64,000 nt of DNA from Gammaproteobacteria bacterium (GTDB lineage Bacteria; Pseudomonadota; Gammaproteobacteria; SURF-13). The notes under the pieces were generated by a model, which saw only the letters and a list, made by a program, of their open reading frames with translations, was not told the DNA's origin and made no database searches. Below, one piece after another: positions 29,099-44,574 of the stretch. Location of the stretch: positions 186,001-250,000 of the forward strand of contig JACPZD010000001.1 of assembly GCA_016195665.1 (NCBI GenBank). The letters run 5' to 3'. A program made the translations under genes and the position numbers. Positions within the stretch are counted from its first letter, which is position 1, and each line of letters begins with the position of its first letter.

Positions 29099-29191
29099 GG
29101 AAAAAGCTGGAGCTAGGCGCTAGGGATGAGTGGCTGGGAGCTTGGGTGAAGGGTTGGGCACCAAGGTCAAACGATTTCGCCCCCCGTTGCC

Positions 29192-29281
29192 GATGCCTGG
29201 GCCGCCGAAAATGCGACGGTGACAATAAACACTAAGAACAATTACTCTGACGGCACCGCGGCGTACCATGTCAGCGAATAA
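29192..29281 (+). other. Possible plus-strand coding fragment in a decayed region
   Basis: A 29-codon plus-strand frame (DAWAAENATVTINTKNNYS and on) ends in TAA at 29281. It has protein-like composition but no start. I do not recognise it. It suggests a gene remnant at the edge of the accessory island. Between here and the mraZ promoter nothing else is seen. Confidence 0.25.
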
Positions 29282-29284
29282 CAG

Positions 29285-29490
29285 ATTGCTTGACGTTCAT
29301 GCCGGGCATTTCCTCACGGGTATAACCCAGCATGCGGCAAAATAATATCGTTGGCCTCGACCACTTTGCCGTCCGTATCGAGGATGTGGATGCCGTCGCT
29401 GGCGGTGAGGAGCAACAGCTGACGGCTGGCGCGTTTAAGGGATTCTTTGCCGCGCTCCGAAGCCGTGTGGCCTCCACCAGCCGCTTCCAC
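29285..29490 (-). pseudogene. PAS-domain sensor gene remnant
   Basis: Two minus-strand frames joined by a frameshift give a PAS-like domain: LLLLTASDGIHILDTDGKVV ending in EAND, then FCRMLGYTREEMPGMN in the other frame. These match the usual PAS pattern of a sensor kinase or diguanylate cyclase. No start or output domain is present. The rest of 29490-29648 shows no gene. It is a decayed signalling gene beside the two-component pair. Confidence 0.6.
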
Positions 29491-29648
29491 GCTTGATGTT
29501 GAATGTCCTCAAGATGTATGTAGCGGCTTGTTTCGCAATCCGGTTTAGGAGTGGATTGGTCAATTAAATCGTGCTCTTGGCCGAGGCAGCAAGGTTTAAA
29601 ACAGTGGCGGGGATTTCGTTTCCTTGGAGGGCATAGGCGTGGTTAAAG

Positions 29649-31022
29649 TCAAAGCCCATATTTTTTAAGCTTATAGTGCAAGGTACGCACCGAGATGCCG
29701 AGGGCGCCGGCGGCCTCTGTCTTATTTCCGCCCGTCGCTTCCATGGCGGCCTTGATGCGCTGGATTTCCAGGGTCGCAATCTCATTGCGGAAGCTGAGGG
29801 CGGCTTTATCCGAACTTGGCGCTGAACCGGTCGGCATCGCGGCGCGAGAACGGAATATCTCCGGGCTGGTGCCCAGGCCTTTGACGGTCAGCAACGGCCC
29901 CGCCGCTACCGCCACGGCCCGGTGTATCACCCATTTGAGCTCGCGGATATTGCCCGGCCAATTGTAACGTTGCAATGCGGACAGCGCCTCCGCTTCGATC
30001 TCCGTAATTTGCTTTAGATAGGCTCGATTCGCTTCGTCAATAAATAGCCGTACCAATAAAGGCAGGTCCTGTATTCGCTCCCGCAACGGCGGCAGTTCAA
30101 ACGATATGCCGTTGATGCGGAAAAAAAGATCGGCGCGGAAGCCGTTGGCGGGATTGCTCAGGTCTTTGTGCGTTGCCCCAATGAGGCGGAAACTGATGCG
30201 CCGCTCCCTTGCGTCTCCCACGCGAAAGTAGGCGCCGGATTCCAATAGGCGCAATAGCTTGGCTTGGACATTGTCCGATAATTCGGCGATTTCATCGAGG
30301 AACAGGGTGCCGCCCGCCGCCTTTTCGATCAAACCCTCCTTGTTCGCGACGGCGCCCGAGAAGGATCCTTTGACGTGGCCGAACAGCTCGCTCTCAACCA
30401 AGTCCTGCGGCAAGGCAGCGCAATTAATGGCCACCAGTTCGCCGTTTTGTTCGGACATGGTGTGTATCCATTGCGCCAAGCGTTCTTTCCCCGTTCCCGT
30501 TTCTCCCGTGATGAGAACGGGGATGTTCAAGGGGGCGATCAAAGGCACGTGCTCCATAATATACTTCATGGCGCCCAGCGGCGAGGCATTAAAAACGGCC
30601 GCGGCCTGCGAGCCGATTTGGCGTTGCAATGACCTTACCTGCTGATGCAATTGACGGTTTTCCAGCAAAACGTTCAGCTCTTGCTTTAGCTTGGGGATAT
30701 TGACCGGTTTGGTGAAGTAATCGGCCGCGCCCTGCTTGAGCGCGGCAATCGCGTTTTCCACCGTTGCGTGCGCGGTTAGCATCACGATGATCGTATTAGG
30801 CTGGAGAACCTTGAACTCGTGCACATAGTCAACCCCGTTGCCTTCCGGCAGACGCACATCCAGCAAAAGCACCGCGACGGTCTGTTCGGCCAGTATCTGT
30901 CGCGCGGCAACCAAGGAATTGGCAATGGTAACGTCGAACATGTCGTCCAACGCTATCGCCAGCGATTCGGCGAAGTTGTCTTCATCGTCGACGATGAGTG
31001 CGCGGAAGTTGGGTTGAATCAT
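29649..31022 (-). CDS. NtrC-family sigma-54-dependent response regulator
   Basis: This protein (457 aa from the ATG at 31022, overlapping the kinase stop as ATGA) has a receiver domain with the phosphoacceptor Asp in VLLLDVRLPEGNG, an AAA+ domain (Walker A GETGTGKE, Walker B GGTLFLDEIAEL) and a Fis-type helix-turn-helix (GGNKTEAAGALGISVRTLHY). The sigma-54 contact loop reads GSFSGA instead of GAFTGA. It probably activates the sigma-54 promoter at 32394 when phosphorylated by the adjacent kinase. The specific signal is unknown. Confidence 0.92.
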   Translation of the reverse strand: MIQPNFRALIVDDEDNFAESLAIALDDMFDVTIANSLVAARQILAEQTVAVLLLDVRLPEGNGVDYVHEFKVLQPNTIIVMLTAHATVENAIAALKQGAADYFTKPVNIPKLKQELNVLLENRQLHQQVRSLQRQIGSQAAAVFNASPLGAMKYIMEHVPLIAPLNIPVLITGETGTGKERLAQWIHTMSEQNGELVAINCAALPQDLVESELFGHVKGSFSGAVANKEGLIEKAAGGTLFLDEIAELSDNVQAKLLRLLESGAYFRVGDARERRISFRLIGATHKDLSNPANGFRADLFFRINGISFELPPLRERIQDLPLLVRLFIDEANRAYLKQITEIEAEALSALQRYNWPGNIRELKWVIHRAVAVAAGPLLTVKGLGTSPEIFRSRAAMPTGSAPSSDKAALSFRNEIATLEIQRIKAAMEATGGNKTEAAGALGISVRTLHYKLKKYGL

Positions 31023-32200
31023 CGGTTGATCTTTACGGAATGGGCCGGCAGCCATATACGGAAATTCGCGCCTTTGTCCGGACGGTGCAATTCCAACTCG
31101 CCGCCGTGCGCGCGTACTATCTTATCAGCAAGATATAAGCCCAGTCCCGCCCCTTTTGATCGTGTGGTGACGAACGGCGACAACAATGACTTCAAATCGA
31201 GGTCGGTAGGGAATCCTTTTCCGTCATCCCGATACTCGATTAAGGCTCGTTCCTCTCCCTCGGAGTTATGCAAAGTCACATGCACTTCACTGGCCCCCGC
31301 CTCGGCGCTGTTACTGAGTAGGTTGGCGAATAATAGATCAAAATAAAATTTATCGCCGTAGCATTTTATGTCATCGGCGATGACGGTGAGTGCGTGGCGT
31401 TGCGTATTTTCATTGATTAAAGCCCTTAAATCCACCCATGACGAATAATCAATCTTTAGGTCTTTGCCGTATATTAACAAGTTATCCATGAGGCGCTGCA
31501 TGCGCTCAAGTTCTTGATAAGAGATTTGGATAAAGCGCTCAACGAAATGACGGTCGCCTATCCGCGTCGGCAGGCTCTGCACCAGATTGGATATGGTGGC
31601 CACCGGCGTACGCAGTTCATGTGACAATGTCGCCGTCATGTGGCCGAGCAGGGCGAAGGCCTCTTGTTCGTGCAGCGCCGTGGTAAGGCGCCGACGTTCC
31701 TCATCATGGAGTAGGCGCTCCAGCCGGGTCTGCTCGCTTTTTGTCACATACGCCAACAGGGCAAGAAATATCAGGAACGAAGCCAGCACTCCGTCCACGA
31801 TTTCACGCATATCCACGACCGTGGTTTCCTTGTTCACGTAGTTGGGATTGATGAAGAGTTGCAATTTGCCGCTTTCCATTTTAATTGACCAAAGCGGTGC
31901 GTCTTGGAGTTCCGTCAGCTTGGCGGAAGCCGGGGGCACGGCGATCACTTCCTCCGGCAGGACTTGCTCGACATAGCGGCTGACGAATTGCGCGACTTTC
32001 TCAGGGGCGGCGTCTCTATGGGTGGCGCGATACACGTCTGCGGTTCGTTGGATCTGGGTGCGGATGGTTTCGCGAATTTCATTTTTTTCCTGCATGTTAT
32101 CGATGCCGCTCTCAATCAGCACTACGATGATCCCAAGCACCAGGGAGATAACAAAGGAGATGGTGATTTTTGTGATATGTGAGAATAATTTCCGAGGCAT
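31019..32200 (-). CDS. Membrane sensor histidine kinase
   Basis: This 393-aa kinase has two membrane segments (near residues 10-30 and 135-155) around a periplasmic sensor region of about 100 residues. Then come a dimerisation domain with the phospho-His in LSHELRTPVATI and an ATPase domain with NLLSNSAEAGAS, DDGKGFP and GAGLGLYLADKIV. It shares a 4-nt overlap with the response regulator and is divergent from the speD operon, so the pair is the likely local regulator. I do not recognise the sensor domain. Confidence 0.92.
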   Translation of the reverse strand: MPRKLFSHITKITISFVISLVLGIIVVLIESGIDNMQEKNEIRETIRTQIQRTADVYRATHRDAAPEKVAQFVSRYVEQVLPEEVIAVPPASAKLTELQDAPLWSIKMESGKLQLFINPNYVNKETTVVDMREIVDGVLASFLIFLALLAYVTKSEQTRLERLLHDEERRRLTTALHEQEAFALLGHMTATLSHELRTPVATISNLVQSLPTRIGDRHFVERFIQISYQELERMQRLMDNLLIYGKDLKIDYSSWVDLRALINENTQRHALTVIADDIKCYGDKFYFDLLFANLLSNSAEAGASEVHVTLHNSEGEERALIEYRDDGKGFPTDLDLKSLLSPFVTTRSKGAGLGLYLADKIVRAHGGELELHRPDKGANFRIWLPAHSVKINR

Positions 32201-32304
32201 TTGAATTTCGCAGCTTATACGTTGCGCTTAACCCTACCCAAGAGACCTTGGTGCTCAGAAATCGTTCCTTGCCGGCCTCGAATGGGAAGCGCCCCGTCTA
32301 ACAC

Positions 32305-32333
32305 CGCGCAATTACGTATACAAGTTTTGCGCG
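32305..32333. promoter_or_regulatory. Inverted repeat, candidate activator site
   Basis: CGCGCAA (32305-32311) and TTGCGCG (32327-32333) form a perfect 7-bp inverted repeat with a 15-bp spacer. Its centre lies about 100 bp upstream of the predicted sigma-54 start, the usual place for an NtrC-type enhancer. It sits between the divergent kinase gene and speD. Binding is inferred. Confidence 0.45.
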
Positions 32334-32393
32334 CCTTGGACCATGCATTTCGACTAAAAACAATAAAGTAATAAACAACAATAACATACATTT

Positions 32394-32409
32394 TGGCCCG
32401 CTTCCTGCA
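32394..32409 (+). promoter_or_regulatory. Sigma-54 promoter for the speD operon
   Basis: TGGCCCG-CTTC-CTGCA matches the sigma-54 consensus TGGCACG-N4-TTGCA, with the essential GG and GC in correct spacing and two mismatches. The start would be near 32420, 51 bp before the speD ATG. A sigma-54 activator is encoded divergently next door. Confidence 0.8.
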
Positions 32410-32470
32410 AACTGTAAGCAATCGCTGGCAAAGTTGCCGGCTATACGCATCTTATTGGAGGAGCCAGGGC

Positions 32471-32953
32471 ATGTATCAAATTGCACAGGCGAACATTAAG
32501 GCGCCGGTCCTAGGCAATCAACTCATTGTCGATTTTTACGATTGTGATTGCGCTTATTTCGACGATTTGGACTGGATAGAGAACGTCATGATTGAGGCCG
32601 CGCATTACGCGCGCGCCTCCATCGTTGACGTCGTGTTCCATAAATTCAATCCCATCGGGATATCCGGGGTGGTGGTTATCGCCGAGTCGCATCTTGCCAT
32701 CCACACCTGGCCGGAACATCGCTATGCGGCAATCGATGTCTTTACTTGCGGCGATACGTTGGACAGTGAAGCGGCGGTTGCCTATCTCGCCACGCAATTC
32801 CGCTGTCGTAAGCGCAGTGTGACAAAGGTGGGTCGCGGAGAATCCGGCGAATTGGCGGGGGGTTTTCCGGGTGACAAAGCCAGCATCTCTACACATGAGC
32901 GATTGGTTGCCGTTGAAACAATCGCCTCCGAGAGAACATCAAGCGAGGATTGA
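32471..32953 (+). CDS. speD: Pyruvoyl S-adenosylmethionine decarboxylase-like protein (SpeD)
   Basis: The 160-aa product follows an excellent GGAGGAG site. The self-cleavage motif GISGVVVIAESHLAIHTWPE holds the Glu-Ser pair whose Ser becomes the pyruvoyl cofactor, and DVFTCG follows. This is the short bacterial (Bacillus/Thermotoga-like) class; the last about 40 residues after RCRKRSVTKV are a variable tail. The expected reaction makes decarboxylated AdoMet, the aminopropyl donor for the next gene. Some family members have switched to Arg or Orn decarboxylation, but the adjacent aminopropyltransferases favour AdoMet. It is the first gene of the sigma-54 operon. Confidence 0.9.
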   Translation: MYQIAQANIKAPVLGNQLIVDFYDCDCAYFDDLDWIENVMIEAAHYARASIVDVVFHKFNPIGISGVVVIAESHLAIHTWPEHRYAAIDVFTCGDTLDSEAAVAYLATQFRCRKRSVTKVGRGESGELAGGFPGDKASISTHERLVAVETIASERTSSED

Positions 32954-32956
32954 CGC

Positions 32957-34018
32957 ATGTCATTATCTTTATCTATGCCGCGTAATCTTGTTGGGGACAC
33001 GAGTCGGAACGAGTCGAGCATCAAGCGCATAACGCTGTTTTCGGGAAAGGAAAAAGTGAATCTTTATGAGGTTCCTGATGCGCTGGATCTCCATGTCTAT
33101 AAAGTAAAGCGGCTGGTGTACCAGCGCCAGACAGCTTATCAGCACATCACTATTGCGGATACTTATAACTACGGAAGAGTTCTGATGCTGGATGGCGCCG
33201 TGCAAAGCGCTCAAAGCGACGAGGCCCTGTACCATGAGTTGCTGGTGCAACCGGCGATGCTGCGCCATCCCGATCCCAAGGACGTGCTTATCATCGGCGG
33301 AGGCGAGGGGGCATCATTGCGCGAAGTGCTTGCCCATCGCAGCGTCCGCACCGCTACCATGGTGGATATCGACGGCGAGGTGGTGGAGTCGTGCCGTAAA
33401 TACCTGCCTACATGGCATTGCGGGGCGTTCGACGACGCGCGGGCGCGTGTTTTTTACGCGGACGGACGCAAATTTATAGAGGAACATGATGGTAAATACG
33501 ACGTTGTCATCATCGATGTTGTAGATATGCTGGATAATGGTCCGGCACAAGCTTTGTATACGCAACAATTCTACAAATTCTTGCGCCGTCGTTTGCACCC
33601 GGGTTTCATCGTGGCGATCCAAGGGCTGGAATTCACTTTCAGCGACTCGCGGGAACATGCCGCGTTGGTGCGCACCTTGCGCACGGTATTTCCTTATGTG
33701 CACAGTTACAGTGCGACGATTCCGTCGTTTTTATCCAGTTGGGGGTTCGTCGTCGCCTGTGACGACTATCCGCCGAATAGCTGGCGGGCCAATGAGATCG
33801 ACTCGGCTATTTCCCGGAAATTAGCTCCGGACCGGCTTGTTCACCTGGACGGCGCCTATCTGGAGAAGACTTTTACCCATTGCCGGTTGACGCGCCAACT
33901 GTTGGCGATGCCCGGTCCTATTTTAGAGGATGAGATAAAACTCGAGTTTAATGTTAAGCAAGATATTACGGATGAAATGGCTGGCGCCACTAAGGCTCAG
34001 TTTAAACCTTTGCGCTGA
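32957..34018 (+). CDS. Aminopropyltransferase, spermidine/thermospermine synthase family
   Basis: This 353-aa enzyme starts 3 bp after speD and should use its decarboxylated AdoMet. It has the N-terminal strand region YQHITIADTYNYGRVLMLDG, substrate residues QSDEALYHELLVQPAM, the nucleotide loop IIGGGEGASLREVL and VDIDGEVVE. The catalytic region reads YDVVIIDVVDMLDNGPAQ, followed by LYTQQFY. DVVDM replaces the usual DSTDP of spermidine synthase, and the GP...LYT pattern is more like thermospermine-type enzymes. It carries about 25 extra residues at each end. The amine acceptor cannot be told from sequence. Confidence 0.88.
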   Translation: MSLSLSMPRNLVGDTSRNESSIKRITLFSGKEKVNLYEVPDALDLHVYKVKRLVYQRQTAYQHITIADTYNYGRVLMLDGAVQSAQSDEALYHELLVQPAMLRHPDPKDVLIIGGGEGASLREVLAHRSVRTATMVDIDGEVVESCRKYLPTWHCGAFDDARARVFYADGRKFIEEHDGKYDVVIIDVVDMLDNGPAQALYTQQFYKFLRRRLHPGFIVAIQGLEFTFSDSREHAALVRTLRTVFPYVHSYSATIPSFLSSWGFVVACDDYPPNSWRANEIDSAISRKLAPDRLVHLDGAYLEKTFTHCRLTRQLLAMPGPILEDEIKLEFNVKQDITDEMAGATKAQFKPLR

Positions 34019-34117
34019 CGGGGTCGGCGGCGGGATTTTCTGCGGTAATTGAAATTCAACGCAAGTCGTAACGCGAGAGATGTGCCGCCGGCCGTTTGGG
34101 TGGAGGCGGGTATAGAT

Positions 34118-34279
34118 ATGATGAAGAGCATGTTGTTTTTTCTTTTTTCAGCAGCTTCCAGCGATAGTGACAACATGAGTTGTCTCCGGGAGGAAATAAA
34201 CGGTTTGTGCCGACGCCGCGGACCCGCAGACGTCAAGTCTTCGCGCGAGCCATTCGGGAAAGAAGGTTATCGTCCGTGA
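34118..34279 (+). CDS. Small ORF coupled to the downstream acyltransferase
   Basis: A 53-codon frame starts MMKSMLFFLFSAASSDSDNM and stops in a GTGA overlap with the next gene (TGA 34277-34279, GTG 34276-34278). GGAGG lies 11 nt upstream of the first ATG. The N-terminus has a short hydrophobic run and the C-terminus is basic and polar. It resembles nothing I know. The stop-start overlap suggests it is translated, either as a real small protein or as a leader that couples ribosomes to the acyltransferase. Confidence 0.4.
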   Translation: MMKSMLFFLFSAASSDSDNMSCLREEINGLCRRRGPADVKSSREPFGKEGYRP

Positions 34280-34866
34280 AAAGATCCACGAGCAAAAAAG
34301 GTGGCATGGCGCTTTCCGGGGCTGAGAAGCTTATGGTCAGAGGCGCTCCAAAGACGGGTAAATCTTTGGACTTTACGCCTTTGCAGAAGAAGGATTTCCC
34401 GGTCTTTTATCGGCAGTTCTTGCAGTTGCGCCCGGAGCCGATTTTTATCGACATCTACGAGCCGACGCCGTTTCCGAGCTTGGCCAAGTTCAAGACCTAT
34501 TTTGCAGTCGACAAGAGACCCCTGTGGGTGTTGGGTCCGCCGGAGTCCCCGGTCGCTTATTTCGCCCTGCATGATTTTCAAGCCGAGCACGATTTGGCGA
34601 ATGTGGAGTTCGTTTTCTTTGCGGGATATCCCGCCCCTGGTTCCAAGGAAGCACGCGCCTTCTGGAAATTCTTTCGCAAATGCCTCGCGGATTACGGCCT
34701 GACCCGTATCCAGAGTTTCGTCCTTCCCTCCAGCGCGGACAAGATCCGTTTGATCGAATCCTTAGGATTTCGTAAGGAAGGCGTACTGCGCGAGCATTTT
34801 TTCCATGACGGCAAGTTGCACGATATCGTTGCCTACGCCTGGATGGCGGAGGAACGTCATGCCTAA
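34276..34866 (+). CDS. GNAT-family acyltransferase 1
   Basis: A GTG at 34276 with AGAAGG 9 nt upstream gives 196 aa; an ATG at 34306 is an alternative. The C-terminal half fits the GNAT fold: YFALHDFQAEHDLANVEFVF (strand 4), then LTRIQSFVLPSSADKIRLIE with SLGFRKEGVLREHFFHDGK, which looks like RimJ/RimL-type N-acetyltransferases. The CoA-binding loop is not typical, so the donor could be acetyl-CoA, a longer acyl-CoA or acyl-ACP. Clustered with polyamine and ACP genes, it may acylate an amine. It overlaps GNAT 2 by 8 nt. Confidence 0.75.
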   Translation: MKRSTSKKGGMALSGAEKLMVRGAPKTGKSLDFTPLQKKDFPVFYRQFLQLRPEPIFIDIYEPTPFPSLAKFKTYFAVDKRPLWVLGPPESPVAYFALHDFQAEHDLANVEFVFFAGYPAPGSKEARAFWKFFRKCLADYGLTRIQSFVLPSSADKIRLIESLGFRKEGVLREHFFHDGKLHDIVAYAWMAEERHA

Positions 34867-35416
34867 GCTTGGCCTGGAAAAGATCATCGTGCGGCGTATC
34901 GTTCCTGCCGATCGCCCTATCCTGCGCCGCTGGCTGAAGGATCCCGGCGTGCGGGCGGCCATCGAGGATGAGACCATCGTGCTGTCGAAGATGGAGGAAA
35001 CCCTGGCGTTATTCGAGTCCAGTGATCCCTTTAGCGACAGCAACCTGGGCCTCATCGTCGAGGTGGCGGGGCGGCCGATCGCCCTGATCCACTTCGTGTG
35101 GATCAACTGGGTCAGCCGCAACGCGGAGGTGATCGTGTTCGTGGGGCCAGAGGATTTGCGGCGCTCGCTTGCCGCCGCCGTGGTCGTGGAAAAGATTGGC
35201 CATGCCGCCTTCCGGGTGCTGAATCTGCACAAGGTCTACGCCTTCGTTTATGGGGCCAACGAAGCGGCGCTTTCGGTATTCCGCAAGTTGACGGAAGAGG
35301 AGGCGTGCCTGCGTTCATACGTCAAATCCTCCGAAGGCTATACGGATTTTCATTTTTTCGGCTTGTTGGCATCGGAATATTTTGCAGCCATGAAAAAGCT
35401 GAAAGGACGGGATTGA
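34859..35416 (+). CDS. GNAT-family acyltransferase 2
   Basis: The ATG at 34859 (GGAGGAAC just upstream) gives 185 aa. It begins KIIVRRIVPADRPILRRWL, typical of RimJ/RimL-type GNAT proteins, and later reads LNLHKVYAFVYGANEAALSV with FRKLTEEE, the acyl-CoA-site helix region. It overlaps both neighbours (8 nt with GNAT 1, 1 nt with the ABC exporter), so it belongs to the same translational unit. It is clearly different from GNAT 1 in sequence, so the two probably act on different positions or substrates. Confidence 0.78.
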   Translation: MPKLGLEKIIVRRIVPADRPILRRWLKDPGVRAAIEDETIVLSKMEETLALFESSDPFSDSNLGLIVEVAGRPIALIHFVWINWVSRNAEVIVFVGPEDLRRSLAAAVVVEKIGHAAFRVLNLHKVYAFVYGANEAALSVFRKLTEEEACLRSYVKSSEGYTDFHFFGLLASEYFAAMKKLKGRD

Positions 35417-37236
35417 TGCGCGGCGACGGCCGTCCGCGGTTGCGTCCGCTTTTACACATCGCCAAGGAATTCTACCTGACTCCGCGGGTCATGGCGTTTT
35501 CAATGGCGCTCATCCTGCTGATGGTCGCGGCCGACGTCGCCCTGCCGTGGATGGCGAAGATCGCGATCGATTTGATTACCGAGGGCCGCAACTCCGCGGC
35601 AGTGAATGCCGTTTTCCGGGAAGTGGTATGGATGGGCGGCATGATTCTCGGCGTGGCGATCGCTCAGTATCTGACCAGCGCCCTGCTGACCCGCTTCTAC
35701 ACTCGCGTCGTCTATCGCGGCACGGCGCGACTGCGGGAACAACTCTACACCCGCATGCAGGCCCAGTCGCTGAACTTCCTGGCCGAGCGGCAAATCGGCG
35801 AGATGTTGACGCATCTGATCACCGATATCCAAAACCTTCAGGATTCGACTCTCGACTTAATATCGGAAGTGCCCTTCGACGTATGCATCTTGCTTGGACT
35901 CACGATAGCGATGTTCATTCTCAATCCGACCTTAGCGCTGATTGTACTGCTGTTCCTGGTGGCATCGGTGCTGTTCGTTTATCGGATCGGGCGCCGCGGT
36001 TGGAAGGCACAGTCCGGCGCGATGCAGGGTACGGCGGATATGACGGCGCGAATGCAGGAAGGATTCGCCGCCGCCCGGACCATTGCCACTTTCGACGCCG
36101 CTCGGGGAGAGCAGCAACGCGTCCAAGAGGCCTCGCAGCGCTATGCCTTTCATATGGAAAATACCGGCAAGGTGCGCGCGGTGATTACGCCCTTTCTGAG
36201 TTTCGCGGAATACGCGGGCGTTATTACGGTCTTGGTTGTCGGCGGTTGGGAGATGCTGCACGGTTCCCTGACGGTGGGCGGCCTCGTGGCGTTTATGGCG
36301 TATATGCAGTTGTCGGCAGATCCGGTATCGCGCTTTTCCCGCGTGATTCTGCGCCTGCAGAATGCCAGCGTTTCGGCCGCGCGTCTTCATGATCTTCTCG
36401 CGGAGACGCACGATGCGCAAGACAAGCCCGATGCGCTGGTGCCCACCGATCTCACGGGGGCGGTGGCGGTCGCGAATGTCCACTTTCGCTATCCCACCTC
36501 CGCCCAGCCGGCATTGAGCGGGCTCGACTTCACAGTGGCGGCCGGGGAAAAGATCGCCGTCGTCGGCCGAAACGCCTCCGGCAAGAGTACCTTTCTCGAT
36601 TTGCTCTTGCGGATTCAAGAGCCGGAGCAAGGCCGCATCTCGGTTGACGGCATCGATGTCCGCGACATCCGCTTGGCCACGTGGCGCTCTTTCATCGGCG
36701 TCGTGCCGCAAGACATCCTGCTCTTGAATCGCAGTGTGGCCGAGAACATCGCGTTGGGCTCTGCCTTTCCCCCGGAACGTATCCGCGAGGCGGCCGCCGC
36801 GGCGGGCCTCAGGGAGTTCATCAACGGTCTGCCGCGGGGATACGAGACGGTGGTGGGGGAGAGGGGCGTGTTTCTGTCCGGCGGTGAACGGCAGCGCATC
36901 GCCGTCGCGAGACTGTTCCTGCGTGCAGCCCGAGTTATCCTTTTGGACGAGCCAACCTCTGCCCTGGACGTCGCTTATGAAAGCGATCTTTTGCCCGCGC
37001 TGCGGCGTTTGTGCGCGGGTCGAACCACGTTCATCGTATCGCATCGCCTCACCGTGCTGACCGAGGTGGACAAGGTCTTGCTGCTGGATGCCGGCCGGCA
37101 ATTGGCTTTCGACAGTCCGGCCCATGTGTGGCGCGATTTCCCGGCCTACCGCGATTTATTTCCCGCGTCGTGGGGGACGCCGCACCATGAGCCTCATGGA
37201 GGGAACAATGTTTTATCTTTATCATCGCCCCTCTAG
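35416..37236 (+). CDS. ABC exporter, fused membrane and ATPase domains
   Basis: This 606-aa half-transporter starts in a TGATG overlap with GNAT 2. It has six membrane segments between residues about 25 and 310 (e.g. FSMALILLMVAADVALPWM) and an ATPase domain with Walker A VVGRNASGKSTF, signature LSGGERQRIAVARL, Walker B VILLDEPTSALD and the switch His in FIVSHRLTVL. It is of the MsbA/bacteriocin or lipid-exporter type and should work as a homodimer in the inner membrane. In context it would flip or export the cluster product or an acylated intermediate. Confidence 0.93.
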   Translation: MRGDGRPRLRPLLHIAKEFYLTPRVMAFSMALILLMVAADVALPWMAKIAIDLITEGRNSAAVNAVFREVVWMGGMILGVAIAQYLTSALLTRFYTRVVYRGTARLREQLYTRMQAQSLNFLAERQIGEMLTHLITDIQNLQDSTLDLISEVPFDVCILLGLTIAMFILNPTLALIVLLFLVASVLFVYRIGRRGWKAQSGAMQGTADMTARMQEGFAAARTIATFDAARGEQQRVQEASQRYAFHMENTGKVRAVITPFLSFAEYAGVITVLVVGGWEMLHGSLTVGGLVAFMAYMQLSADPVSRFSRVILRLQNASVSAARLHDLLAETHDAQDKPDALVPTDLTGAVAVANVHFRYPTSAQPALSGLDFTVAAGEKIAVVGRNASGKSTFLDLLLRIQEPEQGRISVDGIDVRDIRLATWRSFIGVVPQDILLLNRSVAENIALGSAFPPERIREAAAAAGLREFINGLPRGYETVVGERGVFLSGGERQRIAVARLFLRAARVILLDEPTSALDVAYESDLLPALRRLCAGRTTFIVSHRLTVLTEVDKVLLLDAGRQLAFDSPAHVWRDFPAYRDLFPASWGTPHHEPHGGNNVLSLSSPL

Positions 37237-37273
37237 GAGCGTTATTTCTTTGAACGATACTGCGGAGGGATAA
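37208..37273 (+). CDS. 21-residue small ORF with ribosome site
   Basis: ATG at 37208 is preceded by GGAGGG with a 4-nt gap and encodes MFYLYHRPSRSVISLNDTAE plus Gly, then TAA. It overlaps the end of the ABC exporter in another frame and stops 2 bp before the ATG of the next gene. It may be a tiny peptide, perhaps a substrate or leader, or only a coupling device for the downstream gene. There is no homology evidence. Confidence 0.35.
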   Translation: MFYLYHRPSRSVISLNDTAEG

Positions 37274-37275
37274 TT

Positions 37276-38145
37276 ATGACGAAGAAGGCGAAGGTTGCGA
37301 CCAGCAAGGGCAGGAAAGCTCTTTCCCCAAAGGGGCTTTGGAATAAGAAGAGCCGTTTTCAGACTATTGAGCTCGTTGAGGAACGCGGAGGCCTCCTGCT
37401 GAAGTTGAACGGTTGGCCCCAGGTTCACTCCAAAGAGGAAGCAAAGTACCACGAGAACGTGGCCACCATGCCGATGATGTTGGCCCAGAAGGTGGATCGC
37501 TGCGTCATACTCGGGGGTGGCGACGGGCTTGCGGCGCGGAACATCCTGCGCTTTCGCGACGTCAAGAAACTCACCCAGGTGGAACTCGATCCAGGGGTGA
37601 TCAAGCTTTGTTCCGAGCAACCGGACTTTGTCCGCATGAACGAGGATGTTTTCCATAATCCGCGTTTGGAGTTGATCGTCGGCGACGCCATCGAATGGTT
37701 TCTGAAAGCCGAGGGCCCCTTCGATGTCATCATCAACGACATCGAAGTGATGTTTACCAAGCAGCCGCAAAAGATGACATTGGAACGCCACTTCCAATTG
37801 TTCGAGGCCATGGCGGACAAGCTCGCACCCGGCGGGGTGGCGGTGGTCACCGTCCCCGATGACTTCGATGACAGCATCCTGCAAGGATTTTTCGAGATCT
37901 ATGGGGATTACCTGCCCTACGAGACACGGCAGGCGTTCATGAAATCCAAAAATGTGTTCGCGCGCGCGCGGGTTTTGCTGGCGACCTTATTTCCCTACGT
38001 AATGCAATGGACGATACGCTTCCCCGTTTTGGGCCCGCACACTACTTTCTATCTGAGCCATCGTCCGATGACCCGCCTGCGCCGGTCGCCCAATCCGCCG
38101 GCGAAGTACATCAAGGACGACATGATTACACGGGTTCTGAAATGA
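37276..38145 (+). CDS. Divergent spermidine-synthase-like protein
   Basis: This 289-aa protein has the spermidine synthase/methyltransferase fold: SKEEAKYHENVATMPMML, the loop CVILGGGDGLAARNILRF and the acidic VELDPGVIKL. At the catalytic position it reads FDVIINDIEVMFTKQP, so the usual second Asp and the Pro are missing. The C-terminal third (YVMQWTIRFPVLGPHTTFYL onward) and the lysine-rich N-terminus are also unusual. It may bind decarboxylated or normal AdoMet and act on a nonstandard acceptor. A GGAGGG site precedes the ATG. Confidence 0.75.
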   Translation: MTKKAKVATSKGRKALSPKGLWNKKSRFQTIELVEERGGLLLKLNGWPQVHSKEEAKYHENVATMPMMLAQKVDRCVILGGGDGLAARNILRFRDVKKLTQVELDPGVIKLCSEQPDFVRMNEDVFHNPRLELIVGDAIEWFLKAEGPFDVIINDIEVMFTKQPQKMTLERHFQLFEAMADKLAPGGVAVVTVPDDFDDSILQGFFEIYGDYLPYETRQAFMKSKNVFARARVLLATLFPYVMQWTIRFPVLGPHTTFYLSHRPMTRLRRSPNPPAKYIKDDMITRVLK

Positions 38146-38193
38146 GAGATTTTAATCGCCGTCCGGCGGAACGGTTAACACGGTGAGCCGACT

Positions 38194-39414
38194 ATGCGCG
38201 TAGTCGTCACTGGAATGGGGATCGTATCGCCGATCGGCATCGGGACGGACAATTTCTGGAAAGCCGCTATTGCCGGCGTCAGCGGGATTCGCCGTATCGA
38301 GAGTTTCGATGCCTCGCAACAGCGTTCGCAGATTGCTGGTCAAGTCGCCGGCTTCGATCCCGCCGCGCATCTCTCGGCGAAATGTATCGAACAAACCGAT
38401 CGCTTCGCCCAATTGGCGTTGGTGGCCGCGAATCAGGCGGTCAACGATGCGGGCGGACTCGGCGTTTATGCGCCGCATCGTTTGGCCGTGAGCCTCGGCT
38501 CGGGAATGGGCGGCTATGGCACCTTTGAATCCTCTGCCGCGCGTTATTTTCAGAATAAATCCCATCCGCCGCTTACCGTACCCAAGGCCATGTCGAATGC
38601 CGCAAGCGCTTGGATTGCGATCGAGCATCAATGTAAGGGACCCAATCTGACATTCAGCACGGCTTGTTCGTCCGGCGGGCATGGGATCGGCACGGGTCTA
38701 CAGCTCTTGCGGACGGGACAGGCGGACGCGGTTATTGCGGGCGGCGCTGAAGCATGCGTACTGCCGCTGACCATGGCGGGGTTTAACGCCTTGCATGCTT
38801 TATCGATCGCTTATAATGATGATCCGGCGCGAGCGTCACGGCCTTTTTCCAAAGGACGCGACGGTTTTGTCATGGCGGAAGGCGCCGGCATATTGGTATT
38901 GGAAAGGGAAGAGGAGGCGAAGCGTAGGGGCGCGCCCATCTATGCAGTGCTCGCTGGCTACGGTAGCTCATGCGATGCTACCCATGTTGTAGCTCCCGAC
39001 CTGGAAGGGCAAACGGCGGCGATGCGGGCGGCTGTCGCCGACGCCGCGCTAGAGAGAGACGCTATCGACTATATAAATGCTCACGCAACATCCACGCCGC
39101 TGGGGGATGTTATCGAAACACGCGCCATTAAGCATTTTTTCGGATCGCACGCGCAGGACATCGCCATCAGCGCCACTAAATCTCTGATTGGGCACACCAT
39201 CGGCGCCGCGGCGGCCATAGGCAGCATCGCCACGATCATGACCCTGCGTAGCGGTATGATTCACCCGACCATCAATTTTGAGGAAGCTGATGCCGAATGC
39301 GATCTCGATTACACGCCTAATAAGGCGCGTGAATGCAAGGTACGGGTTGGCCTAAGTAATGCCTTCGGTTTCGGCGGCAATAACGTAAGCCTGCTTTTTA
39401 CGACCATAGAGTAA
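38194..39414 (+). CDS. Beta-ketoacyl-ACP synthase (FabF-like)
   Basis: This 406-aa condensing enzyme has an intact Cys-His-His site with the structural Lys: Cys in TFSTACSSGGHG, first His in NAHATSTPLGD (Ala in place of the usual Gly) and Lys/His in SATKSLIGHTIGAAA. GFGGNN closes the C-terminus. It should extend an acyl chain on the acyl carrier protein encoded 19 bp downstream. It stands alone, away from any fab cluster, within the sigma-54 operon, which suggests a dedicated secondary role rather than bulk fatty acid synthesis. Confidence 0.93.
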   Translation: MRVVVTGMGIVSPIGIGTDNFWKAAIAGVSGIRRIESFDASQQRSQIAGQVAGFDPAAHLSAKCIEQTDRFAQLALVAANQAVNDAGGLGVYAPHRLAVSLGSGMGGYGTFESSAARYFQNKSHPPLTVPKAMSNAASAWIAIEHQCKGPNLTFSTACSSGGHGIGTGLQLLRTGQADAVIAGGAEACVLPLTMAGFNALHALSIAYNDDPARASRPFSKGRDGFVMAEGAGILVLEREEEAKRRGAPIYAVLAGYGSSCDATHVVAPDLEGQTAAMRAAVADAALERDAIDYINAHATSTPLGDVIETRAIKHFFGSHAQDIAISATKSLIGHTIGAAAAIGSIATIMTLRSGMIHPTINFEEADAECDLDYTPNKARECKVRVGLSNAFGFGGNNVSLLFTTIE

Positions 39415-39433
39415 ACATGAGAAGGTATAAACG

Positions 39434-39688
39434 ATGGAGACAGCGGATATCGAATCGAAAGTTATAGCTTTTATCACCGAGAAAGTTCATCTGGAGAAGC
39501 CTGTCGAAATTAAAGCGACAACGACCTTTAAAGATCTCAGCCTGGATTCGTTGGATGTGGTCCAGCTTTTATTCGAAGCAGAAGATGCCTTCGGAATTTC
39601 TTTCGATATGGAGAAAGCCACCGACATCACCTGCATAGGCGACATCGCAGCCTATATCGCCAAGCACCAGGCGCGTGCCGCGACGTAA
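39434..39688 (+). CDS. Acyl carrier protein
   Basis: This 84-aa carrier has the phosphopantetheine site LSLDSLDVVQLLFEAEDAF, with Ser in DSLD. The four-helix ACP pattern is clear and the protein is acidic. It directly follows the condensing enzyme, so the two should form a dedicated acyl-building pair. It is distinct in sequence from a typical AcpP (KVHLEKPVEIKATTTFKDL before the site). No 4'-phosphopantetheinyl transferase, ketoreductase or dehydratase gene is in the cluster, so these would come from general metabolism. Confidence 0.93.
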   Translation: METADIESKVIAFITEKVHLEKPVEIKATTTFKDLSLDSLDVVQLLFEAEDAFGISFDMEKATDITCIGDIAAYIAKHQARAAT

Positions 39689-39858
39689 GGTATTGTGTTT
39701 ATATGGGTGGATGCCGACGTTTCGCCCGCCGCATGAAAGAAGATTTCCTACCGATGGGTGTCGTAAAATAATGTGATCATTCGTAGACTCTCCTCAGCTG
39801 GCTGGTTTGGTCGCAGTCGCCCATTTAACCGAAGCGCCGATGACCGCACCCTTTGCGG

Positions 39859-39932
39859 GACGGTACCGTCGGGTAACTATAAGTATACGCATTGCTACAA
39901 AGGTCCAAGGCGTGATGTGTTTTCATCACGCC
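39859..39932. promoter_or_regulatory. Palindrome and hairpin upstream of the efflux genes
   Basis: GACGGTACCGTC (39859-39870) is a perfect 12-bp palindrome. GGCGTGATG (39909-39917) and CATCACGCC (39924-39932) make a perfect 9-bp hairpin with a TGTTTT loop and no following T-run. Both lie in the 292-bp gap between the ACP gene and the efflux genes. They could be an operator and an RNA structure giving the efflux genes separate control. Nothing else is seen in the gap. Confidence 0.35.
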
Positions 39933-39980
39933 GATCGATTCCATCGCTTGAGAGTGATGGTCGACGGCATGATATTTTCA

Positions 39981-41381
39981 ATGCGTAAATTAATACTACA
40001 TTGCAGGCGTGCTCCGCTGATTTGTATATCCGCCATCCTTCTATTGGCAGGTTGCGCGGGTGTTTCTCCGCCGCCGCTGCCGGTGGGCGGCGCGCCCGCA
40101 GCTTGGCGTAACGCAGGGTCTATGGCTGCACCAGGGCCGGCCCCTGACTTTAAGCATTGGTGGAGGGTGTTCGGTGATGCGAAAATCGACCTCCTGGTCA
40201 AGCGCGCGATTGAGAATAATCTAGACTTGCGTCAAGCCATAGCGCGGTTCAGGGCCGCCCGTGCCCTGACGGGGCGATCGCAAGCGGAATTACTCCCAAG
40301 TCTCAGCGTACGTACTTATTCCCTGCCGGACCCCAGCGGCACAACCAGCTATTTTCAATCCGGTTTCGACGCCGAGTGGGAACTCGGCCTGTTTGGGCGC
40401 AGAGACGGCACGCTTCGAATGGCCGATGCGGACGTCGGTATTGCCGCGGCCTCTGTTCAGGCGGCGCAGGTGTCGGTGGTGGCGGAGGTAGTGCGCAGTT
40501 ATATGGAGTTACGCGCGGCGCAGGAGCGTGAAACGCTGCTCGCGAGGCTTGTTGAAGTAGAAACACGACATTTGGCGTTAATACGTTCGCGGTTTCGCCT
40601 TAATCTCGCTTCGGAGGCCGAGGTTGGCCAGGCCGAAGCAAGGCTTGCTCAGGCCGAAGCGGCACTTGCGGAGCCGCATGCGGCGGCAGCCCGCAGCGCC
40701 CAACAGATAGCACTGCTGTTAGGGGAGAACCATCCGGATGCCGGGTTGCTCGCGGTTGTGCCGCGGCCTACTTTAGGTACCTTGCGTATCGGCGTCGTGC
40801 CGGCTGAGATGTTGCGTACCCGGCCCGATATTCGGAAAATCGAACAGGAGGTGCTCAAGGCCGCCGCTGAATTGGGGGTGGCGCGCGCCGATCTCTATCC
40901 GCGTTTAGTCTTGGCCGGCGGATTGACGTTCTCCACACGTCTCGGCGGCAATTCTCTGGGCACGACCCATGGAGTTATTTCCGCTGGACCGATCATCGAC
41001 ATTCCTCTGTTCGATTGGGGTATGCGCCGGGCCGTGGTCAATGCGCGTGATGCCGCGCTTTCGGCGACGCTGCTGGCCTACCGTCAGGCCGTGCTGGAAG
41101 GAGTGGCCGAGGTGGAAACGGTTTTGGCGGCGCTGGAACATTTGCGTGAGCAGGTGGAAAGCATGGACAAGGCGGTCGCCTCCCTGGAGCGCAGCGCCCG
41201 GGCCACTCAGGTGCTTGCCCGCAACGGACTGGCCGATGGCTTTCCCTGCGTTGCAGCGGACAAGGCGCTGTTGGATGCGCGCCTTGAACGCGCCCAGGCC
41301 GAAGAAGCGCGATCATTGGCATTCATCGCTCTTTACAAGGCATTGGGTGGAGCGCCGCCGCTGGGGGTTCAGGACGACTGA
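39981..41381 (+). CDS. Outer-membrane efflux lipoprotein (NodT/OprM type)
   Basis: This is a TolC-like outer-membrane channel of 466 aa from the ATG at 39981. The signal peptide ends in a lipobox (ISAILLLAGCAG), so the mature protein is a lipoprotein. Two OEP repeats follow, with WWRVFGDAKIDLLVKRAIE in the first and RTRPDIRKIEQEVLKAAAEL in the second, and long coiled-coil helices. It starts a transport set and overlaps the permease gene by one base (TGATG). It would carry the product across the outer membrane. Confidence 0.92.
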   Translation: MRKLILHCRRAPLICISAILLLAGCAGVSPPPLPVGGAPAAWRNAGSMAAPGPAPDFKHWWRVFGDAKIDLLVKRAIENNLDLRQAIARFRAARALTGRSQAELLPSLSVRTYSLPDPSGTTSYFQSGFDAEWELGLFGRRDGTLRMADADVGIAAASVQAAQVSVVAEVVRSYMELRAAQERETLLARLVEVETRHLALIRSRFRLNLASEAEVGQAEARLAQAEAALAEPHAAAARSAQQIALLLGENHPDAGLLAVVPRPTLGTLRIGVVPAEMLRTRPDIRKIEQEVLKAAAELGVARADLYPRLVLAGGLTFSTRLGGNSLGTTHGVISAGPIIDIPLFDWGMRRAVVNARDAALSATLLAYRQAVLEGVAEVETVLAALEHLREQVESMDKAVASLERSARATQVLARNGLADGFPCVAADKALLDARLERAQAEEARSLAFIALYKALGGAPPLGVQDD

Positions 41382-42520
41382 TGGTGGCCTTGGCCCGCAA
41401 GACGCTGGTGTATGAGTGGCGGCGATTTCTGCCGGCCATGTTGGCGGTGGCATTCTCCGGCTTGCTGCTGTTGATGCAATTCGCACTGGTCTTGGGTATC
41501 TTCGGTAGCGCCAGTGTCTATATTCGCAAATCTGCCGGCGACCTGTGGGTCGGCTATCCGGGAACCCAAACTATCGATCTTGGGCGTCCGATTCCATCCG
41601 ACACAGAGATGAAGCTCTTGATGGATCCCGCTGCGGAACGGGTCGAGCCGTTTCAATGGCTGAGCGGAGACTGGCGCGGACCTAAGGACCGGGGCGGAAT
41701 TTCGGTGCTTATCTCCGGCATCAATCCGCATTCTGACGGATTGATGTTCGCCGACGTGATGACGCCGGAATCGCGGCAACGCTTGCTTGAACCGGACAGT
41801 GTGATTGTCGATATCACCGATCTGCCCAAGCTCAATTTGGGTGTAGGGGGAAGGGCGACAATCAACGGCCATCGCGTGCGCATTGTCGGTGTTGCCTCCG
41901 GCCTGCGCGCGCTAGGCGGAATCAATGTGGTGACTTCACTTACCACAGCCCGACATCTCAACAGCGATGCGCAGGAGCCCGATTGGGTTGCTTATTACCT
42001 TGTCAAGTTACGCGATCCCGCTGCGGCAGAGATGGTAAAATCGCGGCTGATGCCGCGTGATACGGGCACGCCCCGGCAGTATGCCGTATGGACCGGCGGG
42101 GAGTTCGCTCGCCGCACGGTATTCTACTGGATGTTCGAAACCGGCGCCGGCCTGGGTGTAGTGTTTCTGGCCGTGATAGTATTTTTGGCGGGAGTAGTCA
42201 TTACCAGTCAGACGCTCATGGCGGCGGTCGCCGGGACGCTGCGCGAGTATGCCACCTTGCAAGCGCTAGGGGTTAGTTTCCACGCCTTGCGTAAGGTGGT
42301 GTTGGAGCAGGCCGCATGGATAGGGGCGTGCGGGTTATCGATCAGCGTAGTGGTGGGCGGTCTGGTGTTGTTGCTGGCGCATCGCCTGGACGTGCCGATG
42401 CAACTCGGTCCTGTGACCGCCGCCGCATGTGGCGCCTTGCTCATGAGCATTGCCATGTTTTCAGGCGTCATGGCGATGCGCACGCTGCGCCGCGCCGATC
42501 CGTCAATCTTGCTGAGATAA
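41381..42520 (+). CDS. FtsX/MacB-type ABC permease
   Basis: This 379-aa permease has an N-terminal membrane helix (MLAVAFSGLLLLMQFALVLG), a large periplasmic domain and three C-terminal helices from about residue 255, the FtsX arrangement. It lacks a fused ATPase; the separate ATPase is encoded 6 bp downstream. Mechanotransmission permeases of this type drive MacAB-like efflux or lipoprotein transport. With the adjacent adaptor and channel it should form a tripartite pump. Confidence 0.9.
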   Translation: MVALARKTLVYEWRRFLPAMLAVAFSGLLLLMQFALVLGIFGSASVYIRKSAGDLWVGYPGTQTIDLGRPIPSDTEMKLLMDPAAERVEPFQWLSGDWRGPKDRGGISVLISGINPHSDGLMFADVMTPESRQRLLEPDSVIVDITDLPKLNLGVGGRATINGHRVRIVGVASGLRALGGINVVTSLTTARHLNSDAQEPDWVAYYLVKLRDPAAAEMVKSRLMPRDTGTPRQYAVWTGGEFARRTVFYWMFETGAGLGVVFLAVIVFLAGVVITSQTLMAAVAGTLREYATLQALGVSFHALRKVVLEQAAWIGACGLSISVVVGGLVLLLAHRLDVPMQLGPVTAAACGALLMSIAMFSGVMAMRTLRRADPSILLR

Positions 42521-42526
42521 TACACC

Positions 42527-43243
42527 GTGCCCGCCGCACTACTTCAGGCCAGAGATTTAAATAAATCCTTCCTTTCCGGCCGTATTCGCACCCCCGTGTT
42601 GCGCGACTTGTCGCTCGCCATCGAGCCCGGTGAGCTTACCTTGGTCTCGGGGCCTTCAGGTTGCGGGAAAAGCACCTTGCTAGCCATTCTAAGCGGTTTA
42701 TTGCGGCCGGATTCGGGCCGCGTCGAGGCGTTGGGCGAGGACCTGTGGCAGTTAAGAAACAATGGTCTCGAGCTTTTTCGTTTACAGCATACCGGCTTCG
42801 TATTTCAGGGGTTTAATTTATTTCCGGCGCTGACTGCGCTAGAGCAGGTGGCTTTGCCGCTGAGTTATCTCGGTATGTCCCCGGCGCGCGCCGGCGCGCG
42901 CGCCCTCGTGGCGTTGGAAGAGGTCGGACTTGCCGGCCGTGTGAACTTTCGACCGGCGGAACTCTCCGGGGGTGAGAAGCAACGGGTAGCGATTGCACGT
43001 GCGCTTGCCAAGGAACCGAGCCTTCTGTTTGCAGATGAACCGACCAGTGCCCTGGATGCGGCTAACGGCGCCATGGTCATCGATATTTTGCACCGTATTG
43101 CACACACTCACGCGGCCACCGTGTTGTGCGTCAGTCACGACCCAAGGTTGATCTCTCATGCTGATCGCGTGTTAACGATGGAGGACGGCAAAATTTTAAC
43201 CGACTTACGACCAAGCACGGCTTTTCAGGAAGCGTTGCCATGA
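42527..43243 (+). CDS. ABC transporter ATPase (MacB/LolD type)
   Basis: This 238-aa ATPase starts with a GTG at 42527. Walker A is SGPSGCGKSTLL, the signature is LSGGEKQRVAIARAL, Walker B is LLFADEPTSALD and the switch His is in VLCVSHDPRL. It belongs to the MacB/LolD/FtsE subgroup that pairs with FtsX-type permeases. It overlaps the adaptor gene as ATGA. Confidence 0.94.
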   Translation: MPAALLQARDLNKSFLSGRIRTPVLRDLSLAIEPGELTLVSGPSGCGKSTLLAILSGLLRPDSGRVEALGEDLWQLRNNGLELFRLQHTGFVFQGFNLFPALTALEQVALPLSYLGMSPARAGARALVALEEVGLAGRVNFRPAELSGGEKQRVAIARALAKEPSLLFADEPTSALDAANGAMVIDILHRIAHTHAATVLCVSHDPRLISHADRVLTMEDGKILTDLRPSTAFQEALP

Positions 43244-44139
43244 GCATGGGTATTGTGCGCTGCATTCTGTTTTGCATTCCATTGGGGATAGGCCTCACGG
43301 GATGTTCTTCCGATAACCAAGAGCAGACCGGGGCTAATGTGCCGCCTGTTCCGTATGCCGCCATGGCGAATGGGTGGGTGGACGTGGAAGGTGGATTGGT
43401 GCACATCGGGGCATTGCGCGACGGCGTGGTTCAGGAGGTGCGTGTGCAAGAGGGTGACGCGGTGAGCCGTGATCAAGTGCTGGCCATGCTGGACCCGCGT
43501 CAGGCTCGGATCAACGTGGCTCTGGTCGAGGCGGAATTGAAGCGACTAGCAGCGCAGGCACGTTTGCTCGAAGCCAAGTTATCCAAGGCGGAGCGCCATG
43601 CTGCGCGCATTGCGGCCGCCGTGGCGGAAAATGCCGCCAGCGTTGAATCAGAAGACGAAGCGCGGAGCGGGGTGGCAGAACTCAAAGCCGAGATTGCCGC
43701 AGCCGATGCCGCAACCGAAGCGGCCCGTCAACGCTTGCTGCAGGCGCGCTATGAGCTCGAATTGAACACTATTCGCGCGCCTTTCTCCGGGCTCATCGTC
43801 CGGCGTACGGTACAGGTCGGGCAGAGCCTCTCGATGCAGAATCCCAACGATCTCTTTCAGCTCCTGCCGGACCGCCCGCGCATTGTCCGGGCTGCGCTCA
43901 ACGAGGATTTCGTTGATCGAGTGCATCCCGGTATGAGCGCCGAAGTGGTGCCAGACAGCCAGGGCGATAAAATCTATAGCGCGCGAGTATTGCGCATCAG
44001 CGAAGTATTCGGTCCGAGCCGGCCAGTCGGTAATCCGGATACGCGCGCCGGTATGCGCGATGTTGAGAGTGTGTTGGAACTCCCGCCGGGTACGGCGCTA
44101 CGTATTGGCCAGCACGTACTGGTGCGCTTCAAGCCCTGA
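43240..44139 (+). CDS. Periplasmic adaptor lipoprotein (HlyD/MacA type)
   Basis: This 299-aa membrane-fusion protein has a lipobox signal (IPLGIGLTGCSS), a biotinyl-lipoyl-like half motif (GVVQEVRVQEGDAVSRDQVL), a coiled-coil hairpin (VEAELKRLAAQARLLEAKL) and the second half (IRAPFSGLIVRRTVQVGQSL). It would bridge the permease and the outer-membrane lipoprotein. It is the last gene of the cluster; an inverted repeat follows 65 bp downstream. Confidence 0.92.
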   Translation: MSMGIVRCILFCIPLGIGLTGCSSDNQEQTGANVPPVPYAAMANGWVDVEGGLVHIGALRDGVVQEVRVQEGDAVSRDQVLAMLDPRQARINVALVEAELKRLAAQARLLEAKLSKAERHAARIAAAVAENAASVESEDEARSGVAELKAEIAAADAATEAARQRLLQARYELELNTIRAPFSGLIVRRTVQVGQSLSMQNPNDLFQLLPDRPRIVRAALNEDFVDRVHPGMSAEVVPDSQGDKIYSARVLRISEVFGPSRPVGNPDTRAGMRDVESVLELPPGTALRIGQHVLVRFKP

Positions 44140-44203
44140 ACGGTAATTATACAAGTGTTTCCGCGATCGGAAGTTATTATATAGTTAGGGTGCAGTGAGG
44201 TGC

Positions 44204-44233
44204 GAGCCGCATCGGTCGCGAGCGATGCGGCTC
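44204..44233 (+). terminator. Hairpin after the efflux genes, possible terminator
   Basis: GAGCCGCATC (44204-44213) pairs perfectly with GATGCGGCTC (44224-44233), followed by ACTTTAAATATCTCTTT rather than a clean T-run. It is the only strong hairpin downstream of the adaptor gene. It could equally be a repeat. Confidence 0.4.
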
Positions 44234-44574
44234 ACTTTAAATATCTCTTTACCTCGGTCCAACCGTGGCACCACGCCGTCAGAGAAATTCGGAACTTTTG
44301 GATTGGTACTTAATGGCTGCCGATTACGTTGTTGCTCGCGAAAATTGTTGCTGTGCTGGAATGAGCGCGCATCCCTGCGGTGGAACTGCTGCAGCATGCG
44401 CTGGTGATCTTGCTGCCCGTCGACCATTACCAGCCTTACCGTAAGCGTGTCATCTTCATCCTGTTGATCCGCACCAACTTGTCCATCGTCCTTCACCCAG
44501 GCACCCGTCGCAGACTTATGGGAGATCAATCGCTGGATGGTCGCCACCGAGACAAAGCATAAATTCTCGGTTGG

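Follow-up and report, generated by a model that had tools for sequence, protein, structure and literature searches.

The analysed window, 64,000 nt of the forward strand of contig JACPZD010000001.1 (assembly GCA_016195665.1, positions 186,001-250,000) from a gammaproteobacterial genome, harbours an island of exactly 14 genes in which polyamine-synthesis enzymes stand together with GNAT-fold acyltransferases, a ketoacyl-ACP synthase (KS), an acyl carrier protein (ACP) and two export systems (Table 1). The genes for an NtrC-type response regulator and a sensor histidine kinase (29649-32200, minus strand) diverge from twelve plus-strand genes (32471-44139), in the order SpeD, SpeE1, GNAT1, GNAT2, ABC exporter, SpeE2, KS, ACP, NodT-type lipoprotein, FtsX/MacB permease, LolD/DevA-like ATPase and HlyD-type lipoprotein. 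Every gene named in an earlier note on this DNA, as well as the divergent regulatory pair, was recovered at 29649-44139 by Pfam and NCBIfam scans, with the starts of SpeD (ATG at 32471), GNAT2 (34859) and the ABC exporter (35416) refined.

The 14-gene block is an insertion between mraZ and rnpB, absent from the same place in sibling genomes, i.e. those of the same family as the window genome. In all four siblings with contigs spanning the site (L140, L141, L142 and L167), the distance from the mraZ upstream region to rnpB is 76-127 bp by blastn; the contig of a fifth sibling stops at mraZ and was left out of this count. At E 1e-5, the sibling fragments showed no match to any island protein. 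The G+C content of the insert is 56.6%, against 62.7% in window positions 1-29000 and 58.1% beyond 48546, and the third-position G+C content (GC3) of the island genes varies from 0.57 to 0.75. Pfam scans identified no integrase among the 14 genes, and the best candidate for a flanking repeat at the island ends was an unconvincing 15-nt word with one mismatch (E 0.14). A degenerate PAS-like remnant, recognised by eye, occupies the minus strand at 29104-29648, at the left island edge.

Table 1. Features of the island and its right border (window coordinates).
Feature	Position	Strand	Evidence
Inserted block, about 15.7 kb, 14 genes, between mraZ and rnpB	29104-44787		blastn of sibling DNA
NtrC-type response regulator	29649-31055	-	Receiver PF00072, sigma-54 interaction domain PF00158, Fis-type helix-turn-helix PF02954
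Sensor histidine kinase	31019-32200	-	Pfam HisKA, HATPase_c
Sigma-54 -24/-12-like site TGGCCCGCTTCCTGCA, upstream of SpeD	32394-32409	+	10/12 positions of the consensus
SpeD, class 1b S-adenosylmethionine decarboxylase, 160 aa	32471-32953	+	TIGR03330 141.6 bits (cut-off 75.65)
SpeE1, thermospermine-synthase-type aminopropyltransferase, 353 aa	32957-34018	+	Pfam 150.8 bits
GNAT1, divergent GNAT-fold acyltransferase	34306-34866	+	Pfam below cut-off; structure matches weak
GNAT2, GNAT-fold acyltransferase	34859-35416	+	Pfam Acetyltransf_3; 8fv0 E 2.8e-12
ABC exporter (membrane domain and ATPase), MsbA-like superfamily	35416-37236	+	Pfam ABC_membrane, ABC_tran
SpeE2, aminopropyltransferase-like	37276-38145	+	Pfam 75.8 bits
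KS	38194-39414	+	TIGR03150 (FabF) 501.9 bits (cut-off 493.75); sister to Nitrosomonadaceae clade
ACP, DSL motif	39434-39688	+	Pfam PF00550; 2lol E 2.6e-9
NodT/TolC-type outer-membrane efflux lipoprotein	39981-41381	+	TIGR01845 245.6 bits (cut-off 210.05); PF02321
FtsX/MacB-type permease, DevC-like	41381-42520	+	PF02687, PF12704; TIGR01185 83.8 bits (cut-off 290.35)
LolD/DevA-like ABC ATPase	42527-43243	+	PF00005; TIGR02982 215 bits (cut-off 295.8)
HlyD/MacA-type periplasmic adaptor, lipobox (by eye)	43240-44139	+	TIGR01730 85.6 bits (cut-off 94.9)
rnpB (RNase P RNA gene), right border of insertion	44788-45127	-	RF00010 351 bits

The twelve plus-strand genes are arranged in three blocks: speD-speE1, separated by a 3-nt gap; GNAT1-GNAT2-ABC-speE2-KS-ACP, with end-to-start overlaps from GNAT1 to the ABC exporter followed by gaps of 39 nt (before SpeE2), 48 nt (KS) and 19 nt (ACP); and NodT-FtsX-ATPase-HlyD, joined by overlaps and one 6-nt gap. 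The close linkage described in the earlier note stands for most of the genes but is broken at two points, between SpeE1 and GNAT1 and between ACP and NodT.

SpeD and SpeE1 fit a published thermospermine pair and are hence of a known kind. SpeD retains the class 1b residues in a motif comparison, namely E-S-H, where the pyruvoyl group forms, together with a His and a Cys. SpeE1 displays the motifs VLIIGGGEGA and MVDID (an Asp in motif 3) and keeps the catalytic Asp190; its best solved relatives are the Thermus aminopropyltransferase 3anx/1uir (230 bits), 7xif and the thermospermine synthase 6bq2. According to PMC11107197, hhhhGGGEGA and the motif-3 Asp are found in most thermospermine synthases, although a protein with them may still be a spermidine/aminopropylagmatine synthase. 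The same paper describes Pseudomonas aeruginosa SpeD2 (160 aa) and its SpeE2 (349 aa) as a thermospermine pair, in a genome with a separate SpeD and SpeE. As judged from these published sizes, order and motifs, both species carry a 160-aa class 1b SpeD with an aminopropyltransferase of roughly 350 aa immediately downstream (PA4773-PA4774 in P. aeruginosa), both have a separate, longer SpeD and a further SpeE, and both pairs lie beside a two-component system. In contrast, the island has an NtrC-type regulator with a sigma-54 domain where P. aeruginosa has PmrAB, and beyond the pair it continues with GNATs, KS, ACP and two exporters.

Elsewhere, the window genome codes for another, longer SpeD (G000:C24:108883-109269) and another SpeE (G000:C22:39520-40062; 181.6 bits versus 152.4 for SpeE1), and four of five siblings have a single SpeD, of the longer type (none in the fifth, which is 76% complete); the island set is therefore extra. 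Housekeeping spermidine synthesis was rejected because of these other copies, and the earlier note's view that the locus is not a housekeeping one is borne out by them and by the insertion. Outside the window genome, SpeE1 relatives of 56% and 51% identity occur on Phyllobacterium and Rhizobium plasmids, both preceded by SpeD-like sequence, which forms a 158-aa frame in Rhizobium and no single clear frame in Phyllobacterium; the 14-kb flanks on these plasmids had no GNAT, KS, ACP, outer-membrane efflux protein, FtsX or HlyD matches, and their ATPase, kinase and receiver matches were generic. Within the class, SpeE1 matched at E 1e-45 or better in 8 of 331 genomes, one of them the window genome, and five of the new places, when inspected, showed neither KS nor ACP, one having ATPase matches and one an NtrC match.

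The second aminopropyltransferase-like protein, SpeE2, departs from its family at the acceptor side. It scored 86.6 bits on the spermidine synthase model TIGR00417, below the cut-off of 249.55. In an alignment of 38 SpeE rows that includes both window proteins, the catalytic Asp is present in 37 and replaced in SpeE2 by Val158, with further differences at Gln, Leu and Trp positions; residues inserted nearby could shift this column, but no Asp, and one Glu, lies within the ten residues after Asp155. The residues that serve the nucleoside side in spermidine synthase structures are retained (Gln29, Tyr58-His59-Glu60, GGGDG, Asp137 and Asp155). The closest relatives are membrane-fused SpeE proteins of the PRK03612 type, with which SpeE2 shares a GGGDGL motif, but unlike them it has no N-terminal membrane region and lacks the catalytic Asp along with further residues of the acceptor side. 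Its predicted structure was poor (mean pLDDT, the per-residue model confidence, 48.8) and was not used.

No SpeE2 ortholog was found in draws of 185, 369 and 398 genomes (overlapping, and each including the window genome) or in plasmids; all that these searches yielded was generic or membrane-fused SpeE proteins of about 25-40% identity. Peptide patterns, which reach close relatives only, similarly found none in a scan of 84,980 species or in viral contigs. Among 69 genomes with a match in the draw of 185 (the window genome being one), 18 were inspected with their flanks; neither KS nor ACP (E 1e-5) accompanied the match in any of them, and in several SpeD lay beside SpeE.

The KS-ACP pair has its relatives in ammonia oxidisers. 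A search of the class yielded one KS at 69% identity, adjoined by an ACP, with no further island gene in the surrounding 31 kb other than weak kinase/receiver matches. A two-sequence pattern search of the species collection then gave 48 KS loci, 26 of them at 66-72% identity and the other 22 at no more than 46%. Among the 26, 23 carry the label Nitrosomonas, Nitrosospira or Nitrosovibrio and three only that of Proteobacteria (two of these falling within the Nitrosomonas branch of the tree), and ACP lies directly downstream of KS in 24, the remaining two being cut off. In a 54-row tree (without the genome's own copy L053, L071, duplicates, rows with fewer than 330 aligned residues, and loci in which the open reading frame filter had removed the KS frame), a 26-row clade has 100/100 support, with the window KS sister to the other 25 and a long stem separating it from the other class rows; L108, the closest row outside it, sits on a long branch. 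A KS-ACP pair that forms a clade of its own recurs across Nitrosomonas and Nitrosospira (L073-L097). On plasmids only FabF-like KS matches below 60% identity were found. Ammonia monooxygenase had no match in the window genome, the control genomes being equally empty.

Whereas KS and its downstream ACP are shared with these Nitrosomonadaceae, the fetched flanks of the 26 loci, up to 10 kb and shorter at contig ends, had no SpeD, SpeE, GNAT, outer-membrane efflux protein, FtsX or HlyD match, with ATPase matches in one locus and a weak kinase match in another. In the genomes of 25 of these loci, SpeE2 matched weakly in 5 (best E 8.4e-18) and not at E 1e-5 in the other 20. In all eight Nitrosospira/Nitrosovibrio loci of the 48, KS-ACP adjoins a lipid-type gene set comprising a weakly GNAT-like protein (18.5 bits, cut-off 20.7), a MobA-like nucleoside triphosphate transferase, two LptF/LptG permeases and a diacylglycerol-kinase-type protein; this neighbourhood is absent from the fetched flanks of the Nitrosomonas loci. 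By gene composition only, the set resembles a phosphosphingolipid cluster that PMC11324152 and PMC9386255 report from Caulobacter and Nitrosomonas eutropha. Its weakly GNAT-like member, which has no sequence-level relationship with the island GNATs, offers a possible precedent for a KS-ACP pair with an N-acyltransferase, and suggests that this KS-ACP family can supply acyl chains to such an enzyme acting on an amine; in the island that amine would be a polyamine.

The island GNATs are divergent. The best solved relatives of GNAT2 are diamine and spermidine N-acetyltransferases, all distant, and it scored 39 bits on the SpeG model NF011709 (cut-off 218). The predicted structure of GNAT1 was poor (mean pLDDT 48.2) and was not used. 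Either protein could use acyl-ACP rather than acetyl-CoA, or could have undergone other changes.

The ABC exporter scored 343.2 bits on the MsbA model TIGR02203 (cut-off 602), and fell below the cut-off in the best 25 of 184 families; a search of 228 other genomes at E 1e-90 found nothing related to it. The four proteins of the last block match DevBCA-TolC and MacAB-TolC in composition (adaptor, FtsX-type permease, ATPase and outer-membrane channel), but differ from them in scoring under the curated Dev cut-offs (DevA 215 against 295.8, DevB 39.6 against 129, DevC 83.8 against 290.35). A search of 41 Nitrosomonas-family genomes, run without a positive control, found no match to the FtsX permease at 1e-20.

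Control of the island by sigma-54, as claimed in the earlier note, is a prediction with moderate support. In its favour, the interaction domain of the regulator scores 186 bits and a -24/-12-like site precedes SpeD; sites of this 10/12 grade number two in 64 kb, and the chance of one falling within the 271-bp gap is about 0.015. Against it, the sigma-54 contact loop reads GSFSGA, where the consensus is GAFTGA, and consensus counts over the whole window showed no excess over chance, so that it is position that sets the site apart. No Rfam leader was detected around speD up to E 0.5.

The island thus combines modules that can also exist apart, next to an NtrC-type regulator and a plausible sigma-54 site. 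Its parts are mostly known, and their combination was seen in no other genome searched, the full gene set occurring in the window genome only; the whole island had no megablast match among plasmids. Among the papers listed in searches of an open-access library with few subscription journals, none described the gene cluster or the KS-ACP family. The novelty claimed in the earlier note accordingly holds for the gene set but not for the SpeD-SpeE1 pair, and the co-occurrence that it proposed to look for was found nowhere else, the SpeD-SpeE1 and KS-ACP pairs each turning up without the rest, an outcome that in part answers to what the note itself named as refuting it.

We favour, with a probability of roughly 0.4, a reading of the locus as an acquired and regulated polyamine-export island whose modules serve a single pathway, because a single compact block unites KS-ACP and SpeE2 with the GNATs and one of the exporters. 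The link of a similar pair to surface polyamine in P. aeruginosa, where PA4773-PA4775 are reported as necessary for outer-surface spermidine (PMC3572637), also counts for export; PMC11107197 grades the surface evidence as marginal for spermidine and stronger for norspermidine. In such a pathway, SpeD would make decarboxylated S-adenosylmethionine, and SpeE1 would add aminopropyl groups to a triamine, most likely converting spermidine to thermospermine. The polyamine would be N-acylated by one or both GNAT-fold proteins, perhaps using acyl groups supplied by the dedicated KS-ACP pair, while SpeE2 would bind decarboxylated S-adenosylmethionine or a related nucleoside and act on a different acceptor. 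The MsbA-like exporter and the four-protein efflux set would move the product to the periplasm, the outer membrane or the medium, under control of the kinase/NtrC pair. That the product is an N-acylated thermospermine-type polyamine lipid, i.e. a new class of envelope molecule built with a dedicated KS-ACP chain and a second aminopropyltransferase-like enzyme of changed acceptor site, seems unlikely.

Several results weigh against a single pathway. Both the SpeD-SpeE1 and the KS-ACP pairs dispense with the remaining modules elsewhere, and no second genome was found in which the acyl and aminopropyl parts co-occur as a full set. The matches of GNAT1 are weak throughout (best E 0.0017), and the acetyl-CoA-loop GKG aligns to RRS in GNAT2, which makes its activity unsure. 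The exporter proteins fall under the curated cut-offs of the named families listed, the generic NodT model excepted. Finally, 284 nt separate SpeE1 from GNAT1 and 289 nt separate ACP from NodT, gaps that leave room for separate transcripts. These gaps and the three blocks they delimit, the separate occurrence of two modules and the uneven GC3 would all be expected if the thermospermine pair, the GNAT/ABC unit, the KS-ACP pair and the efflux pump shared an insertion site but not a pathway. We regard such a patchwork as possible, if on balance doubtful: the aminopropyltransferase-like gene and KS-ACP lie within one compact block, and all twelve genes point away from a single regulator pair.

The fit of SpeD-SpeE1 to the P. 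aeruginosa pair and the reported need for PA4773-PA4775 in surface spermidine could alternatively mean that the exported molecule is thermospermine, either free or acetylated, or norspermidine made from it, which reaches the cell surface as in that species, with KS-ACP remodelling membrane lipids in the same stress response, as its lipid-type neighbours in Nitrosospira would allow, and with no acyl-polyamine formed. We hold this to be improbable, since it gives no account of SpeE2, an unusual protein whose gene sits between those for the ABC exporter and KS. SpeE2 would find a role if the island made a signal or small antibiotic from acyl-ACP and S-adenosylmethionine, comparable to acyl-homoserine lactones or microcin C, in which SpeE2 aminopropylates a non-amine acceptor; its retained nucleoside-site residues and lost catalytic Asp agree with this, and microcin C provides a precedent for phosphate aminopropylation (PMC10491745). 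Yet Pfam and NCBIfam scans of the two GNATs detected no LuxI-type family, and SpeE1 resembles an ordinary polyamine enzyme, so that a product of this sort is very unlikely.

If the modules do act together, the island would connect the synthesis of thermospermine with fatty-acyl chemistry and with export to the envelope, in a system open to testing. Attention is also drawn to a KS-ACP family in ammonia oxidisers and to a relative of the aminopropyltransferases whose acceptor site has been rebuilt.

Elsewhere in the window, a KatG catalase-peroxidase gene (45878-48100, minus strand) lies between rnpB and a DUF3426 gene and has no match in the spanning sibling loci L141 and L142, which perhaps reflects a second acquisition. 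Outside the window, two genes of the window genome (a phosphofructokinase and TrpE, as judged by eye) and one sibling gene (L144:986-2317, minus; L145:9896-11455, minus; L142:9827-10687, plus) contain a repeat of about 50 bp that translates in frame as SVAGGR(T/M)PGATA, with no copy in the window itself; the repeat recalls the in-frame palindromic elements that occur in Rickettsia. Lastly, an IS200-like (Y1) transposase with C-terminal helix-turn-helix matches is encoded at 61783-62745 on the plus strand.

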